Origin: Dyella acidiphila
GTDB taxonomy: Bacteria > Pseudomonadota > Gammaproteobacteria > Xanthomonadales > Rhodanobacteraceae
Assembly: GCF_014863405.1 (NCBI RefSeq)
Contig: NZ_JACZZA010000009.1
Span: forward strand, 1-64,000
Length of the DNA stretch: 64,000 nt
Direction of reading: 5' to 3'
Position 1 is the stretch's first letter; each line of letters opens with the position of its first letter. The position numbers and the translations under genes were made by a program. A model generated the notes under the pieces. It did not search any database. It was not told the DNA's origin and saw only the letters and a list, made by a program, of their open reading frames with translations. Shown piece after piece: positions 54,014 through 62,193 of the stretch.

Positions 54014-55363
54014 TCACGAGGGCAGGATGATGCGATGGATGTCGTTGTAGAACGCCAACCCCATCAGCGTGAACAACAAAGCGATGCCCACATACTGGCC
54101 CGCGATCATGGTCCGTTCGCTGACCGGGCTGCCTTTGATCAGCTCGATAAGGTAATACAGCAGGTGCCCCCCGTCCAAGATCGGGATGGGCAGCAGGTTG
54201 ATGATCGCCAGGCTGAGCGACACCAGGCCGAGGAATTCCAGGAAACGGTCCAGCCCCGCCTGCGCCGACATGTTGGCCGCCTGCGCGATGCCGATCACGC
54301 CGGACAGGTTCTTGGTCGAGGCCTGCCCGGTCAGCATCTTGCTGACCATGGTGAAGGTGTCGGTGGTGCGCTGCCAGGTAAGGTCGAGCGACTCGCTGAA
54401 CGCCTTGAGCGGGCCGTAATGCTGGATCGCCGCTTCCGAGGCTGCCGGCGTTACGCCGATCACCCAGCGCGCCGCGCCGCCCTCGGGCGACTCCATGCGT
54501 GCGGTAACGCTGAACTGCATCGGCCGGTGGTTGCGTTCCACTTCGACGCTGAGCTTGGGCGACTTGGCCGCCGCTGCCACGATCTGCTTGCCCAGATCGT
54601 TGAAATCCTTCACGGCCACGCCATCGATGCTGAGGATCTTGTCGCCGGCCTGCAGGCCGGCCAGCGCGGCCGGGTCGCCCGGCGACACGGTGGCGGCGAC
54701 GGCAGGGGCGGCGGCCAGTTCCAGGCCGAGCTTGTCCATGTACTGGCCGATATCTTGCCCGGCCGGCAACCGATCCAGCGGCAGCACCAGCGAGCGCTGG
54801 CTGCCGTCGGTGCCGCGCACGGTGACCGGCAGCGCGGTACGGCCGAGCATGGCGTTGGCGATCGCGTCGAGCGAGCCCGTCCAGGTGGTGACCTGCTCGC
54901 CGCCGAGGCTCAGCAGCCGGTCGCCGGGACGGATGCCGGCCTGGGCAGCGATGCTCTGCGGCTCCGCGGTGACTACCGGCGCGTAATCGGTGCGGCCCAG
55001 CACGAACATCAGCCAGAACGCAGCCACGGTAAAGATGATGTTGAAGCCGGGGCCTGCAGCAACGATGGCGATGCGCTTCCAGATCGGCTGCGCGGTGAAT
55101 TCCTGCTCGCGCAGCGCCGGGTCGACTTCGCCCTCGCGCGCATCGAGCATTTTGACGTAGCCGCCCAGCGGAATGGCAGCCACCTGGTATTCGGTGCCGT
55201 CACGCGCAACGTGCTTCCAGATGGCGCGGCCGAAGCCGACCGAGAAGCGCAGCACCTTCACGCCGCAGCGGCGTGCGACCCAGTAGTGTCCGAATTCGTG
55301 AAAGGTCACCAGCACGCCAAGCGTGACCAGCAACCAAAACACCGAGCCGAAAAAGGGATTCAT
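54014..55363 (-). CDS. rseP: Site-2 protease RseP
   Basis: RseP cleaves anti-sigma-E inside the membrane to release sigma-E. The 449-residue product has the zinc motif HEFGH at residues 22-26 in the first membrane helix, two PDZ domains (AGIRPGDRLLSLGG and AGLQAGDKILSIDG) and the C-terminal NLLPIPILDGGHL that supplies the third zinc ligand. It lies between dxr and bamA as usual. Confidence 0.96.
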   Translation of the reverse strand: MNPFFGSVFWLLVTLGVLVTFHEFGHYWVARRCGVKVLRFSVGFGRAIWKHVARDGTEYQVAAIPLGGYVKMLDAREGEVDPALREQEFTAQPIWKRIAIVAAGPGFNIIFTVAAFWLMFVLGRTDYAPVVTAEPQSIAAQAGIRPGDRLLSLGGEQVTTWTGSLDAIANAMLGRTALPVTVRGTDGSQRSLVLPLDRLPAGQDIGQYMDKLGLELAAAPAVAATVSPGDPAALAGLQAGDKILSIDGVAVKDFNDLGKQIVAAAAKSPKLSVEVERNHRPMQFSVTARMESPEGGAARWVIGVTPAASEAAIQHYGPLKAFSESLDLTWQRTTDTFTMVSKMLTGQASTKNLSGVIGIAQAANMSAQAGLDRFLEFLGLVSLSLAIINLLPIPILDGGHLLYYLIELIKGSPVSERTMIAGQYVGIALLFTLMGLAFYNDIHRIILPS

Positions 55364-55398: not shown

Positions 55399-56553
55399 TC
55401 AGCAAGCGTTGCGAAGTACCCGCCGGGCGGCGCCCCGGGCGGCCCGATCGCGTTCGCTGAGGGTTTGGGTATCGACCACGGGCATCGGCGGCAGTTCCAT
55501 CAGAATCTGCTCGACCAGGTCGGCAACCGACGGCAGCGACAGGGAGCCGGCGAGGAAGGCCTCTACCGCCACCTCGTAAGCCGCGTTCAGGATGGTTGCC
55601 GCGTCGCCGCCTGCGCGCATGGCGTGGTAGGCGAGCGCAAGGCAGCGGAAGCTGGCCAGGTCCGGTTGCTCGATGGCCGGCGCGGTGGCGTCCGGCGTGT
55701 TGACCGCCGTTTCAGCCGATGCCGGCCACGCCAATGCGCGGGCAAGCACCTCCGGCAGCATTGCCGCGCCGGGCTGGATTCGCAGCTGGCCGTCGTCGTA
55801 CTCGATCCGCACGTGGGTTTGCGCCTGCGGTTGGATCATCGCCTCGATCCGATCGGGCGCATCTCGCAGCAAGGCTTTGGCGGCGATCGCCAGCAGGCCG
55901 TCGCGCATCAGGCAGGCTGCACCCACCGCGGCGCCAAGTTCACGGGGGTTGCGCGAGGTGCCGAGTTGCGCCGGAGTGACCCGCACTAACTGGGCTCGGC
56001 TCAAACCGGCGAGCGGCCCTCCCGCTCCAGCCAGCACGAGCCGTTCGGGGCGGCTTCCCGGGGCGGCCTCACCGAAGCCGACGAAGGCCGCGAATAGCTC
56101 CGATTGCAGCGGGATCAGCCCACCGCCGCCTTGATCGAGCGCCTGGCGCAATAGCGGGCCAGCGACGACGGCCGATTCTCGATTGCCCAGCAACAGATGC
56201 TTGCCGCTGCGTGCGGCGGCCAGGCTGGCCTCAATGCCGCTGGAACCGGCGATGCCGACGATCACCGTATCGCAGCCGCCTGAAGCCGCCGATGCGGCCA
56301 GGGCGCCCGGGCCGCTGGCGATATCGCAAGTCACGCCGGCTGCTGCCAGGCGGCGCGCCAGCGCACCTTCCAGGGCGGGATCCGCAATGACGGCGAGTTC
56401 GGGTCGATGGCGGACGCATTGCGCGGCCAGCGCGTCGACGTCGCGATACGCCGTCAGCACGCGTGCGCGGTAGCGCTCCGGATGGCCATGGATGAGCTTG
56501 AGCGCGCTGCTGCCGATCGCGCCGGTTGCACCCAATACGGCAACCTGGCGCAT
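55399..56553 (-). CDS. dxr: DXP reductoisomerase homologue with degenerate active site
   Basis: By position (between cdsA and rseP), length (384 residues) and overall similarity this is the dxr gene of the MEP isoprenoid pathway. The NADPH motif GATGAIGSS and the C-terminal LNAAYEVAVEAFLAG are kept. The active site is not: K125 of NKES is Arg (GNRES), the metal ligand D150 is Gln and H153 is Leu (PLQSEL in place of PVDSEH), and the segment that normally holds HP-W-MG, KISVDSAT and NKGLE reads TSRNPRELGA and LMRDGLL. So E231, S222, N227, K228 and H209 equivalents are lost. It is an intact frame, so it may be an active variant or a pseudoenzyme; see findings. Confidence 0.85.
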   Translation of the reverse strand: MRQVAVLGATGAIGSSALKLIHGHPERYRARVLTAYRDVDALAAQCVRHRPELAVIADPALEGALARRLAAAGVTCDIASGPGALAASAASGGCDTVIVGIAGSSGIEASLAAARSGKHLLLGNRESAVVAGPLLRQALDQGGGGLIPLQSELFAAFVGFGEAAPGSRPERLVLAGAGGPLAGLSRAQLVRVTPAQLGTSRNPRELGAAVGAACLMRDGLLAIAAKALLRDAPDRIEAMIQPQAQTHVRIEYDDGQLRIQPGAAMLPEVLARALAWPASAETAVNTPDATAPAIEQPDLASFRCLALAYHAMRAGGDAATILNAAYEVAVEAFLAGSLSLPSVADLVEQILMELPPMPVVDTQTLSERDRAARGAARRVLRNAC

Positions 56554-56565
56554 CGCCGGAATTAC

Positions 56566-57387
56566 TCAGAAGCCCAGCAGCAGCTTGCCGAGGGCGAAGA
56601 AGGGCAGCGCCGCAAAAACGCTGTCGAGGCGGTCCAGCAGGCCGCCATGGCCGGGGAACAGCACGCCGGAGTCTTTCACGTTGGCGTGCCGCTTCATCAG
56701 GCTTTCCAGCAGGTCGCCGACGATCGAGCTGGCCACGGTCACCACCGTCACCACCACCAGGCCGGCTAGGCGCGCGTCGCGCACACCGAGCAGCCAGCCG
56801 CCCGCCGCGATCACCACGGCGCTGGCGGCGAAGGCGCCGTACACGCCGGCCCAGGTCTTGCCCGGGCTGATCTGCGGCGCCAGCTTGCGCTTGCCGAAGA
56901 AGCGGCCGGAGAAATAAGCGCCCGTATCGGCGGTCCAGACCAGCAGCATGGCCAGAAACGCCCACACGTGGCCGTGCGGCTGGCTGCCATGGATGCTCAG
57001 GGCGGCCACCCAGGCCGGGAAGATCACGAACACACCGGCCAGCAATTTCAGATTGCGGTTCTCAGGGGTGGGCGCGGCAGCGAAGGCGAAATGGCGCAGC
57101 CACATGCAAACCACCAGCCACCAGGCCACCCCGGCGGCGATCAGCGCCGGCCACAGCCACGCCGAGGCACGCACCAGCCACAACAACACGAACAGCACCG
57201 CCGCCACGCCCAGCACCACACCGCGGGTGCGGCGGTCCTTCATGCCGGACAGCCGGGTCCACTCCCAGGTGGCCGCCAGGAACGCCGCGGCCAGCAGCCA
57301 GGCGAACAAGTCCGTCGGCACGAACAGGATCAGCAGGATGGCTAGCGGCGCAAGGAGCAGGGCGGTTAGAACGCGCTGTCGCAGCAT
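56566..57387 (-). CDS. cdsA: Phosphatidate cytidylyltransferase
   Basis: CdsA makes CDP-diacylglycerol, the precursor of all phospholipids, in the inner membrane. The 273-residue product has about eight hydrophobic segments and the family signature near the C terminus (SLMKRHANVKDSGVLFPGHG, then GLLDRLDS). It begins 16 bases after uppS and ends 12 bases before dxr. Confidence 0.95.
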   Translation of the reverse strand: MLRQRVLTALLLAPLAILLILFVPTDLFAWLLAAAFLAATWEWTRLSGMKDRRTRGVVLGVAAVLFVLLWLVRASAWLWPALIAAGVAWWLVVCMWLRHFAFAAAPTPENRNLKLLAGVFVIFPAWVAALSIHGSQPHGHVWAFLAMLLVWTADTGAYFSGRFFGKRKLAPQISPGKTWAGVYGAFAASAVVIAAGGWLLGVRDARLAGLVVVTVVTVASSIVGDLLESLMKRHANVKDSGVLFPGHGGLLDRLDSVFAALPFFALGKLLLGF

Positions 57388-57403: not shown

Positions 57404-58141
57404 TCAGGCCTGGGCGACCTGATCACCGGTACGGCCAAAGCGGCGCTCGCGGCGGGCAAAGTCATTGATGGCGTGCTGCAGCGAGATCTGGTTGAAGTCC
57501 GGCCACAGCGTATCGGTGAAATACAGCTCCGCATAGGCCAGCTGCCACAGCAGAAAATTGCTGACGCGGCGATCGCCGCCGGTGCGGATGAACAGGTCCA
57601 GCGGGGGCAGTTCGGCCAGGCTGGTGGAGGCATCGAAGGCGGTTTCGTCGATGGCGTCCATCGACAGCTCGCCCTGCGCCACGGCGGCGGCGAGCTTGCG
57701 TGCGGCCTGCACGATGTCCCAGCGGCCGCCGTAGTTCACCGCGATGCTCATCTGCAGCTTGCTGTTGCCGGCGGTGCGCTTCATGGCGCCCAGCATGCGC
57801 TGCTGCAGCGGCTTCTCGAACGCGCCCAGATCGCCGATGAAGCGCAGACGCACGCCGTTTTCGTCCAGCTCGTCGACTTCTTTGTCGAGCGCGCGCACGA
57901 ACAGGTCCAGCAGGGCGCCGACTTCTTCCGCCGGGCGCTGCCAGTTCTCGCTGGAGAAGGCAAACAAGGTCAGTGCTTCCACGCCTTGCCGCAGGCAGCC
58001 TTCCACCACTTCGCGCACAGCCTTGCGGCCGGCGTTATGGCCGAAGCTGCGCGGGCGATGGCGTGCTTTCGCCCAGCGGCCGTTGCCATCCATTACGATG
58101 CCGATGTGGCGAGGTAGGTAGGTTTGGGAAGTCGTGGTCAT
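57404..58141 (-). CDS. uppS: Undecaprenyl diphosphate synthase
   Basis: UppS extends farnesyl diphosphate with eight isopentenyl units to make the lipid carrier for peptidoglycan and O-antigen. The 245-residue product has HIGIVMDGNGRWAKARHRPR with the catalytic Asp, FAFSSENWQRP, and the C-terminal LFIRTGGDRRVSNFLLWQ with the family Arg residues. It needs isoprenoid precursors, which bears on the odd dxr two genes downstream. Confidence 0.96.
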   Translation of the reverse strand: MTTTSQTYLPRHIGIVMDGNGRWAKARHRPRSFGHNAGRKAVREVVEGCLRQGVEALTLFAFSSENWQRPAEEVGALLDLFVRALDKEVDELDENGVRLRFIGDLGAFEKPLQQRMLGAMKRTAGNSKLQMSIAVNYGGRWDIVQAARKLAAAVAQGELSMDAIDETAFDASTSLAELPPLDLFIRTGGDRRVSNFLLWQLAYAELYFTDTLWPDFNQISLQHAINDFARRERRFGRTGDQVAQA

Positions 58142-59947: not shown

Positions 59948-61291
59948 TCACAACTCCAACTGGACTTCGCGCTTGAGTACGCGCGTGCTTACCAGGTAGT
60001 AGGCGATGCCCAGGCCCAGCCAGGCCAGGCCGATCGCCTTGGCCTGCCAGTCCATCTGCCACAGCACATAGCCGATGATCAGCAGCCCGATCAGCGGAAA
60101 CACCAGGTGCAGCACCCAGCGCCTGGAGCGCTGGCGGATCATGTAGTGGTTGATCACCGACAGATGCAGCACCAGGAAGCCGCTGAGCGCACCGAAGTTG
60201 ACGATGCGGCTGAGGCTGTCGATATGGCTGGCGAAGGCCAGTCCGACCGCCAGCGACACCGCCGCCACCAGCAGCGTGCTGACATATGGCGTCTGGTATT
60301 TGGGGTGCACCTTGGCCAGCACATGCGGCAATTTGCGGTCGCGGCCCATGGCATACAGGATGCGCGAGATGGCCGCCTGCGCCACCAGCGCGTTGGCGAT
60401 GCCCCACGACAGTGCCGTGGCCCACATGGTGGCGTACTTGAGCGTGTTGCCGCCGGCCCGGGCGGCGGTTTCGTAGAAAGCCACGTCGTTATTGCTGAAC
60501 GACATGCCGCGGGCCAGGTCCACGGCAATCCAGGTCTGCAGGATGAACAGGGCGCCCACCACCAGCAACGCAACCAGGGACGCCTTGCCGACGCTGTCCA
60601 CGCCGTCGCGGCTTTCCTCCGACAACGTGGAGATGCCGTCGAAGCCGAGGAAGGACAGCACCGCGATCGACACCGCGCCGACCACCACCGACAGGCTGAA
60701 TTTCTCGGGGTTGTACAGCGGCGCCAGGGTGAGGCCGGTCGGATGGTCGCCGGAATACAGCGCAACCAGGCCGAGCACGATGAACACCGCCAGGATGATG
60801 CCTTCGGCAACCAGGATGTAGCGGTTGGCCTTGGCGGTGAATTCCACCCCGAACAGATTGATCAGCGTGTTGACGGCGATAAAGCCGGTCAGCCAGGCCC
60901 AGGCCGGCACACCGGGCACCATCGGCTGCAGGGCCGCCGCGCTGACGATATACAGCAGCGCCGGCACCAGGATGTAGTCGAGCAGGATCAACCAGCCGGA
61001 AAAGAAGCCGACCACTTCGTGAATGCCGCGCTGCGCATAGGCATACACCGAGCCTGCTACCGGAAAGGCGCGCGACATCGACCAGTAGCTCATCGCGGTG
61101 AAGAACATCGCGACCATGCCGATCAGATACGCCAGCGGCACCATGCCGCGCGCATCTTCGTACACATAGCCGAACACGCCGAACGGTGCGATCGGCACCA
61201 TGAAGATCATGCCGTACACGACCAGGTCGCGGATGCTGAGTGCGCGCTTGAGTTCCTGCTTGTAACCGAAGTTCTGTTCGACCGGCATCAT
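59948..61291 (-). CDS. APC family amino acid/polyamine permease
   Basis: The 447-residue product has about twelve hydrophobic segments and the APC pattern MIFMVPIAPFGVFGYV, MSRAFPVAGSVYAYAQRGI and LSFLGFDGISTLSEESRD in segment 6-7. It is closest in feel to the putrescine importer group (PuuP/YfnA-like). It overlaps the acetamidase gene by four bases (ATGA), so the two are co-translated, which suggests import of an amine or amide linked to that enzyme. Substrate is not proven. Confidence 0.88.
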   Translation of the reverse strand: MMPVEQNFGYKQELKRALSIRDLVVYGMIFMVPIAPFGVFGYVYEDARGMVPLAYLIGMVAMFFTAMSYWSMSRAFPVAGSVYAYAQRGIHEVVGFFSGWLILLDYILVPALLYIVSAAALQPMVPGVPAWAWLTGFIAVNTLINLFGVEFTAKANRYILVAEGIILAVFIVLGLVALYSGDHPTGLTLAPLYNPEKFSLSVVVGAVSIAVLSFLGFDGISTLSEESRDGVDSVGKASLVALLVVGALFILQTWIAVDLARGMSFSNNDVAFYETAARAGGNTLKYATMWATALSWGIANALVAQAAISRILYAMGRDRKLPHVLAKVHPKYQTPYVSTLLVAAVSLAVGLAFASHIDSLSRIVNFGALSGFLVLHLSVINHYMIRQRSRRWVLHLVFPLIGLLIIGYVLWQMDWQAKAIGLAWLGLGIAYYLVSTRVLKREVQLEL

Positions 61292-62193
61292 GCGTCCTGC
61301 AGGCTGATGTTGAGTTGGCGGGCAATCGACTTGGGCAGTGCGTAACGGCAGGTTTTCTGCGGATCGACCACCTGGCAGATCTGCAGATCGCCGGCAACGG
61401 AGAGCAGGTTCACCGCATCGTCGATGGACATGCCGGCGCGCTTGCTGACGAAGGACGCCATGTTGCGCGCCGCCAGATTGGCGGCATCGTCGAGCAAAGG
61501 CGCCGATGCGATGGTGTAGATCGCATCGGCGGTCTGTGCCATCGGCGTGGGCAGCTCGTGGTTTTTGAGCACCGCCACGCGCACGGTGACTTCTCCGGCG
61601 ATCTCCATGCCGCATACCGACACTTCGCCGTCGCCCATCGCCGCATGCAGATCACCCATTGCCAGCAATGCGCCGGGCACGTTCACCGGCAGATAGAGCG
61701 TGGTGCCCTCGGCGATGATCTTGCAGTCCATATTGCCGCCGTGGGCGTCGGGCGTGCCGCACGACACCGGCGCGCCGGCCGGCGCCGTGCCGATCACGCC
61801 GATCATCGGATTGAGCGGCACGCGCACGCCTTGCGGGAGCGTGGCGTGGCCATCGGCGATGGGAATGACGCGGATGGTCGGTGCGCTGATCTGGTCGCCG
61901 CATACGCCGAGCTTGGGCGCGGTCACCATCACGGCCTGGCGGTTCAGTGCGATGCGCTCGATATGCACGGCGAGCACGTCGCCGGGCTGTGCCTCGTCGA
62001 TATACACCGGACCGGTGGCGGGATTGACGCGCTGCCAGTCCAGCTCGCCGAACGCAGCATCGGCCGACTGGATCTGATCCTCGAAACAGTCGCAGGTCTC
62101 GAATACCAGGGTGCCGGGGCCGGCGATGCGCAATGCCGGCGCCTGCTCGGGGCCCATGGCGTAAATCAGATGGTTGCGGGTGACGCGATGCAC
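61288..62193 (-). CDS. Acetamidase/formamidase family protein
   Basis: FmdA/AmdA enzymes hydrolyse short amides to ammonia and the acid. The 301-residue product has PVYIDEAQPGDVLAVHIERI, PNPMIGVIG-like PLNPMIGVIGTAP, the GNMDCKII motif and GDLHAAMGDGEVSVCGMEI. The start is GTG 62193, supported by an excellent AAGGAGGT site five bases upstream. It is the first gene of a two-gene operon with the permease, inserted between tsf and pyrH. Confidence 0.9.
   Translation of the reverse strand: MHRVTRNHLIYAMGPEQAPALRIAGPGTLVFETCDCFEDQIQSADAAFGELDWQRVNPATGPVYIDEAQPGDVLAVHIERIALNRQAVMVTAPKLGVCGDQISAPTIRVIPIADGHATLPQGVRVPLNPMIGVIGTAPAGAPVSCGTPDAHGGNMDCKIIAEGTTLYLPVNVPGALLAMGDLHAAMGDGEVSVCGMEIAGEVTVRVAVLKNHELPTPMAQTADAIYTIASAPLLDDAANLAARNMASFVSKRAGMSIDDAVNLLSVAGDLQICQVVDPQKTCRYALPKSIARQLNISLQDA

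Follow-up and report, generated by a model that had tools for sequence, protein, structure and literature searches.

The window, by which we mean the whole stretch of 64,000 nucleotides of Dyella acidiphila DNA analysed here (its genome is referred to as G000), contains the gene order frr, uppS, cdsA, dxr, rseP, bamA-like, and lpxD-like, in which the identities of frr, uppS, cdsA, and rseP are supported by Pfam, and the bamA-like and lpxD-like genes were named by eye. The dxr-derived open frame (55399-56553, minus strand; 384 codons plus stop) starts with ATG, has no internal stop, and lies downstream of the isoprenoid user uppS (57404-58141, minus strand) and of its immediate neighbor cdsA (56566-57387, minus strand; assigned by Pfam), and upstream of rseP (54014-55363, minus strand), which probably starts with ATG and encodes Peptidase_M50 and PDZ domains. 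Elsewhere in the window, genes for an amino-acid permease and an acetamidase/formamidase-family protein (59948-62193, minus strand) are found between the tsf-like and pyrH-like genes, a region that is usually a tight cluster. Among the best 80 of 575 RseP matches, a set that may leave out the window genome itself, Dyella flava reaches 86%; D. flava, D. acidisoli, D. nitratireducens, D. lipolytica, D. dinghuensis, D. choica, and D. psychrodurans fall at 78-86%, and other Rhodanobacteraceae at 74% and below.

Homology to Dxr spans the full length of the window protein (TIGR00243 positions 1 to 386), and all 29 of its sequence matches in the PDB are named DXP reductoisomerases (best E 1.9e-53). 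Its score against TIGR00243 is 203.6 bits, below the curated equivalog cut-off of 315.7 bits. In a wider sample of the class, Dxr was matched in 301 of 369 genomes and 293 of these matches passed the cut-off, so that a sub-threshold Dxr is rare. The protein matches Pfam DXP_reductoisom and DXPR_C, and its middle part matched no Pfam model at E ≤ 0.001. It is divided into an N-terminal NADPH-binding (Rossmann) domain (residues 1-150; 56104-56553, minus strand), a middle connective/catalytic part (residues 151-296; 55666-56103, minus strand), and a C-terminal helical domain (residues 297-384; 55402-55665, minus strand). A report on the Toxoplasma DXR structure describes an N-terminal NADPH Rossmann domain, a connective domain with the dimer interface, and a C-terminal helical bundle, and it lists comparable ligands (Glu, His, Asn, Lys, and Trp) in the numbering of that enzyme (PMC11346426).

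Judging from its residues, the window copy is catalytically dead. Aligned to E. coli Dxr (from NC_000913), whose numbering is used throughout, it is changed at the substrate residues (K125R, S186A, H209S, S222A, N227R, and K228D), at two of the three metal ligands (D150Q and E231L, with E152 kept), and at H153 (H153L), and W212 is also lost, while S151 is retained; here we take D150, E152, and E231 to bind the metal and the others to bind the substrate. Only two of the 10 substrate and metal residues of the middle part are kept, while near-invariant residues are kept at 19 of 23 positions in the N-terminal domain and 13 of 18 in the C-terminal domain. The first-pass annotation, made from the sequence of the window, had described a full-length frame of 384 codons between cdsA and rseP with Arg at K125, Gln at D150, and Leu at H153 and with the NADPH motif and C-terminal domain kept, all of which agrees with the alignment. 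Its statement that the metal-binding residues were lost holds for D150 and E231 but not for E152, and the segment from H209 to E231, which it called unrelated, has indeed changed at each of the residues it named but keeps V220, A223, M226, G229, and L230. The window protein has very probably lost DXP reductoisomerase activity. It is similar to pseudoenzymes in general in that the catalytic motif is lost and the family fold is apparently retained, but differs from them in that its role is only putative and the gene is lost outright in sister species.

Profile searches of the window genome found a single Dxr match and no second dxr. DXR type II, or DRL (PF21135), is an alternative DXP reductoisomerase; no DRL_cat match was found in the window genome, in a search in which no control matched, and this model matched one of 119 relatives and none in the genus. 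The expectation of the first-pass annotation that a true DXP reductoisomerase, either another dxr or a DRL-type protein, is encoded elsewhere finds no support in these results, while the mevalonate genes that it had proposed to look for are present. The mevalonate cluster of the window genome (contig C11, about 649-655 kb) holds a type 1 IDI (IDI-1), an HMG-CoA reductase-mevalonate kinase fusion (759 amino acids; scores of 416 and 233 bits, each above its cut-off), a PMK-like protein that at 88.8 bits falls short of its cut-off of 165.7 bits, and MvaD (294.5 bits). With HMGR, MVK, the sub-threshold PMK-like protein, MvaD, and IDI all present, D. acidiphila is a mevalonate-pathway organism. The cluster lies near hpnH, hpnI, hpnJ, hpnK, and hpnA and an hpnB-like gene just under its cut-off, and the HMGR-MVK protein (L069 5845-8124, minus strand) is a natural fusion near these hopanoid genes. 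MvaD is over cut-off in all 16 genus genomes, and a matching kinase hit lies within open frames of 761-796 codons in 16 of 16.

The later MEP enzymes IspG, IspF, and IspH have disappeared from the genus almost completely. IspG (GcpE) and IspF were each found in none of the 16 genus genomes (control matches in 9 of 14 known genomes for both), and IspH was found in one, G008 (control matches in 10 of 14). G008 is a draft, 91% complete and 4% contaminated; its IspH (LytB) gene (C222, L184; 2754-3716, minus strand) is either a last MEP remnant or contamination, and next to it on the contig of 4.7 kb an lspA-like frame and the terminal part of an ileS-like frame were recognised by eye. Because mevalonate genes are present and the later MEP enzymes that were searched for are gone, DXP reductoisomerase is unneeded for isoprenoids. 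Three models were each run on 119 genomes; dxr went unmatched in 21 of them, and MvaD exceeded its cut-off in all 20 of these 21 that were listed. Two genomes of the same family, G052 and G056, carry Dxr, GcpE, and MvaD together, which indicates that both pathways can coexist, and these are possible intermediates of the swap. Our best reading is that dxr is an orphan of a replaced pathway in a soil-bacterial Dyella group that switched to the mevalonate route, and we have little doubt that this is a dead Dxr in a mevalonate cell. The window copy resembles type I Dxr/IspC (TIGR00243) in its usual place between cdsA and rseP, its full length, its N- and C-terminal domains, and its best solved-structure matches, but is unlike it in its score below the curated cut-off, in the loss of most substrate and metal residues, and in that the pathway it served is gone.

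Pathway replacement as such is already known, since a 2023 survey counts 541 of 4,400 species as having mevalonate genes while their MEP pathway is absent or incomplete (PMC10663253). Listeria is described, in a 2026 review of isoprenoid pathway diversity, as likewise keeping leftover MEP genes in a mevalonate organism, but its remaining steps run to MEcDP (PMC13001223), while in D. acidiphila IspF is gone and Dxr looks dead. The word Dyella is absent from the main text of that review as far as it was available (PMC13001223). Among the matches listed by our literature search, none joined Dyella to a swap between the MEP and mevalonate pathways, and no Dxr pseudoenzyme, or graded series of them, was recognisable.

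A second relic of the MEP pathway is IspE, which survives in 10 of the 16 genus genomes behind an acetyltransferase (GNAT) domain in one frame, an arrangement verified at the domain level for G000 and G001. The IspE score is 275 bits for D. lipolytica and 149.7 bits for the window genome, the latter still above the cut-off of 138.7. The ATP-loop motif is degraded in six genomes (G000, G006, G007, G009, G010, and G015) and intact or nearly so in four (G001, G008, G011, and G013). The GNAT-IspE gene is located at L172 1133-2623, minus strand, in the window genome (C11, about 5.6-7.1 kb), and at L174-L182 in relatives; conservation of its 3' part extends to silent sites, as would be expected of a downstream regulatory element.

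Within the genus, dxr was matched in 7 of 16 genomes. The copy of D. lipolytica (G001) scores 437 bits and has an intact active site except for W212S. Five full-length copies are dead and score 204-256 bits, namely those of G000, D. flava (G007), G009, D. dinghuensis (G010), and D. psychrodurans (G011). In G013, an 86%-complete draft, a frameshift divides dxr into two overlapping frames, nearly all of which is still translatable. Eight genomes have lost dxr and show a cdsA-rseP gap of only 122-224 nt, and in G008 this region is unassembled, the RseP match covering residues 235-463 only. Placed on a tree of rseP and cdsA (support 54 for the G009-G015 node and 39-69 for deeper nodes), the losses fall on at least three branches, that is, G003, G015, and the clade of G002, G004, G005, G006, G012, and G014, and judging from this tree the deletion of dxr is an event that occurred at least three times independently. 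The dead copies differ from each other at K125, D150, E152, H153, K228, and E231, and the group of G000, G007, and G009 has H153L and a three-codon deletion in common. Because the nearly intact copy of G001 lies inside the group, inactivation appears to have been separate in the G000/G007/G009 group, G010, G011, and G013. The D. lipolytica Dxr (L068 / L098), in which the lid residue W212 is Ser, has a tip omega of about 0.08, and this species is without a match to IspF, IspG, or IspH despite a nearly intact Dxr under strong purifying selection.

Selection on the dead copies was analysed in 12 genomes, six of the seven genus copies (G013 was omitted for its frameshift) and six outgroups, with branch times fixed from cdsA and rseP because free-rate regional omegas had saturated silent sites. 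Omega, the estimation of which the first-pass annotation had suggested, turned out to be uneven, low at both ends and high in the middle. On the five dead tips it was 0.20-0.31 by window for codons 1-150, then 0.91, 0.61, 0.45, 0.94, and 0.86 in successive windows of codons 151-302, and 0.15, 0.07, and 0.07 for codons 303-391, compared with 0.02-0.11 on background branches and 0.04-0.09 in D. lipolytica. The N- and C-terminal windows are far from omega 1 (2dlnL 73-241); the N-terminal domain is under purifying selection, the C-terminal domain is constrained, and the middle part, which lost the active site, is relaxed. All five dead lineages, taken singly, show this mosaic (omega of 0.16-0.31 in the N-terminal part, 0.57-0.77 in the middle, and 0.04-0.18 in the C-terminal part). 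Pairwise estimates agree in direction (dN middle > N > C), although pairwise silent divergence is higher in the middle, and the omega contrast may be overstated. Homogenisation by recombination from the conserved flanks was considered: it is not favored for the N-terminal part, where silent divergence is not reduced, and may apply to the C-terminal part.

In 200 neutral simulations per lineage from the D. lipolytica dxr to the observed identity, without indels, 2-22 runs escaped a nonsense hit, depending on lineage and base composition, which makes the joint absence of stops across five lineages improbable under neutrality. Of the columns that are near-invariant in 37 reference Dxr, 97 are also kept in D. 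lipolytica; at these, the five dead copies together keep 99/115 residues in the N-terminal domain, 77/90 in the C-terminal domain, and 119/225 in the rest of the middle, against 7/55 substrate and metal residues. Identity-matched neutral simulation gave 90.5 ± 6.4 for the structural invariants of the middle, and none of 300 runs reached the observed 119/225; for substrate and metal residues of the middle it gave 18.0 ± 3.5 against the observed 7/50, and none of 300 runs was as low. With independent triplets (one of G000, G007, and G009 plus G010 and G011), the structural excess stands (0/400 runs reach it) but the active-site deficit is weaker (0 to 34/400 runs as low). Whole-gene HMM scores, on the other hand, were reached or passed by 174-191 of 200 neutral runs for G000, G007, and G010, by 64-103 for G009, and by 21-40 for G011, the number varying with base composition, and thus indicate no constraint in four of the five copies and a slight excess at most in G011.

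About ten indel events (12 rows, one common to three genomes) fall in codons 166-299, and every indel of the dead copies lies in the middle part. All are multiples of three; because translations of open frames were aligned, this follows from the frames being open, and the in-frame indels were withdrawn as a test of selection. A nucleotide alignment permits off-frame stretches of 3-30 nt in all five dead copies, amounting to 63-84 nt each, compared with 11 and 0 nt in two working copies. At such low identity these stretches may just be alignment noise, or they may represent compensated frameshifts; if the latter are real, they account for part of the amino-acid change in the middle, which is then inflated. 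The stops, frameshifts, and omega near 1 throughout that mark a pseudogene are not found in the window copy, and only G013 is frameshifted, though compensated frameshifts are possible. The pattern expected of a pseudoenzyme, with the catalytic motif lost and the rest constrained, is observed, though the whole-gene HMM scores speak against it. The earlier view that the gene is not simply decaying gains support from the open frames, the structural invariants kept above the neutral level, and the purifying selection on both ends.

AlphaFold, given only four dead copies, modelled no more than the N-terminal domain with confidence (blocks of 77-95 up to residue 120; 57.4 overall). Given 37 sequences, it produced a Dxr fold (89.0; TM 0.90 to 4zn6), which is no independent evidence of the fold because working homologues make up most of the alignment.

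The 3' end of dxr contains a sigma-E-like promoter motif, GGAACT-N15-GGTCGA (55472-55498, minus strand), within its last 33 codons and 109-135 nt upstream of the rseP ATG; it resembles the sigma-E consensus. It is the single such site in the window, where none is expected by chance. In all eight genus genomes without dxr, GGAAC-N16-GGTCG is kept 123-136 nt before the conserved rseP ATG. These deletion genomes are the real test of the motif, because in genomes that retain dxr the same nucleotides also code for conserved residues. Under a looser rule the motif was present in 85 of 95 rows, some species being counted twice. Silent sites change more slowly in the last 34 codons of dxr (scale 0.42) and, to a smaller extent, in the 27 preceding codons (0.74). 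The 3' end of dxr seems to serve as a promoter of rseP. The longest rseP frame overlaps dxr, and, with a conserved ATG 42 nt downstream, overlaps annotated here may be wrong. The ATG at 55363 occupies the same column in all 21 aligned genomes and is probably the real start of rseP, rather than the TTG at 55405. Overlap and translational coupling of dxr with rseP was rejected, as this TTG is absent in G003, G004, G005, and G006 and the ATG is universal (21/21).

We consider that there is about an even chance that the dead Dxr is retained as a passenger locked in an essential operon. Isoprenoid precursors from the mevalonate pathway would have removed the need for the MEP pathway, and with the later MEP enzymes gone, Dxr activity would be useless and possibly harmful, since turnover by Dxr in a cell lacking IspF or IspG would consume DXP and NADPH to no purpose. 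DXP is needed for thiamine and pyridoxal, and Dxr would drain it from their supply. Useless or harmful activity would explain the loss of the substrate and metal site, which took a different course in each lineage, and a wasteful Dxr fits an active site lost as fast as, or faster than, expected under neutrality. Its place in the tightly packed operon cdsA-dxr-rseP-bamA would keep the dxr frame open, as a stop or frameshift would put a stretch of untranslated RNA before rseP and a misfolded product would be costly. Selection would then hold a translatable and foldable protein until a clean deletion removes the gene, and such deletions, of which there were at least three, spared the sigma-E-like motif. 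The pathway swap, the lost active site, the lineage-specific losses, the open frames, the uneven constraint, and the conserved promoter-like motif were computed; polarity and the cost of misfolding are what we infer as the reason for retention. Several results speak against this passenger reading. Omega of 0.07-0.15 in the C-terminal part is near that of a working gene, a constraint above what a misfolding cost would lead us to expect, and a middle much freer than the ends, together with this strong C-terminal constraint, favors a real function for the ends. An rseP promoter inside dxr should make polarity matter less and weakens the argument from the operon. The frameshift of G013 persists, though in a draft and with nearly all of the gene translatable, and the whole-gene HMM scores also count against an operon-locked gene.

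The next reading, a repurposed pseudoenzyme in which the Rossmann and C-terminal helical domains carry a non-catalytic role (e.g., NADPH-binding sensor or scaffold) and the active site is freed, we regard as tentative and clearly less probable than the passenger. It accounts for the same omega mosaic in all five dead lineages, for the near-invariants kept at both ends and lost at the substrate and metal site, for E126 and N124 being kept in five and four of the five dead copies beside the ever-changing K125, and for residues 1-120 being confidently modelled from dead copies alone. Any such role would be dispensable, as the gene was lost at least three times and frameshifted once in the genus. 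In addition, G009 has lost G8 of the NADPH motif, and residues 37/38, presumably the 2'-phosphate-binding pair, are changed in four of the five dead copies; NADPH binding is a prediction. A version that we hold equally tentatively is that Dxr in this Dyella group had, or acquired, a second and non-catalytic role borne by its NADPH-binding and C-terminal domains (e.g., signalling the NADPH state to its own envelope-stress operon). This role would have outlasted the MEP pathway, with nothing but the active site dissolving, in parallel, in at least three lineages. The nearly intact, constrained Dxr of D. lipolytica would then be the starting point.

Plain neutral decay of a relic that is still open by chance is improbable. 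Identity-matched simulations do reach similar whole-gene HMM scores, one copy (G013) is frameshifted, three of the five middle windows are near omega 0.9, and short compensated frameshifts are possible; but few neutral runs stayed free of stops in any of the five lineages, the N- and C-terminal windows are far from omega 1, and structural invariants are kept above neutral. Still less probable is an enzyme with changed chemistry using the NADPH domain, an option raised by the first-pass annotation: the NADPH motif is largely kept and the alignment-driven model has a Dxr fold, but the option is unlikely, as the substitutions vary from one lineage to another, the dead copies having no new active-site residues in common, and parts of the middle evolve almost freely. 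That the protein is still a DXP reductoisomerase with migrated ligands is hardly credible despite a predicted Dxr fold (TM about 0.9 to known Dxr), as the downstream IspF and IspG are absent and D150, E231, H209, and W212 are lost in the window copy.

One genus thus spans a nearly intact orphan, several copies that died independently, one broken by a frameshift, and losses that spare the downstream promoter motif. With this series it can be tested what holds the frame and the structural residues of a dead enzyme under selection, and whether Dxr does anything besides serving isoprenoid synthesis. The series is also a warning for annotation, in that a low-scoring dxr in this group should not be read as a sign of an MEP pathway or of a target for fosmidomycin.
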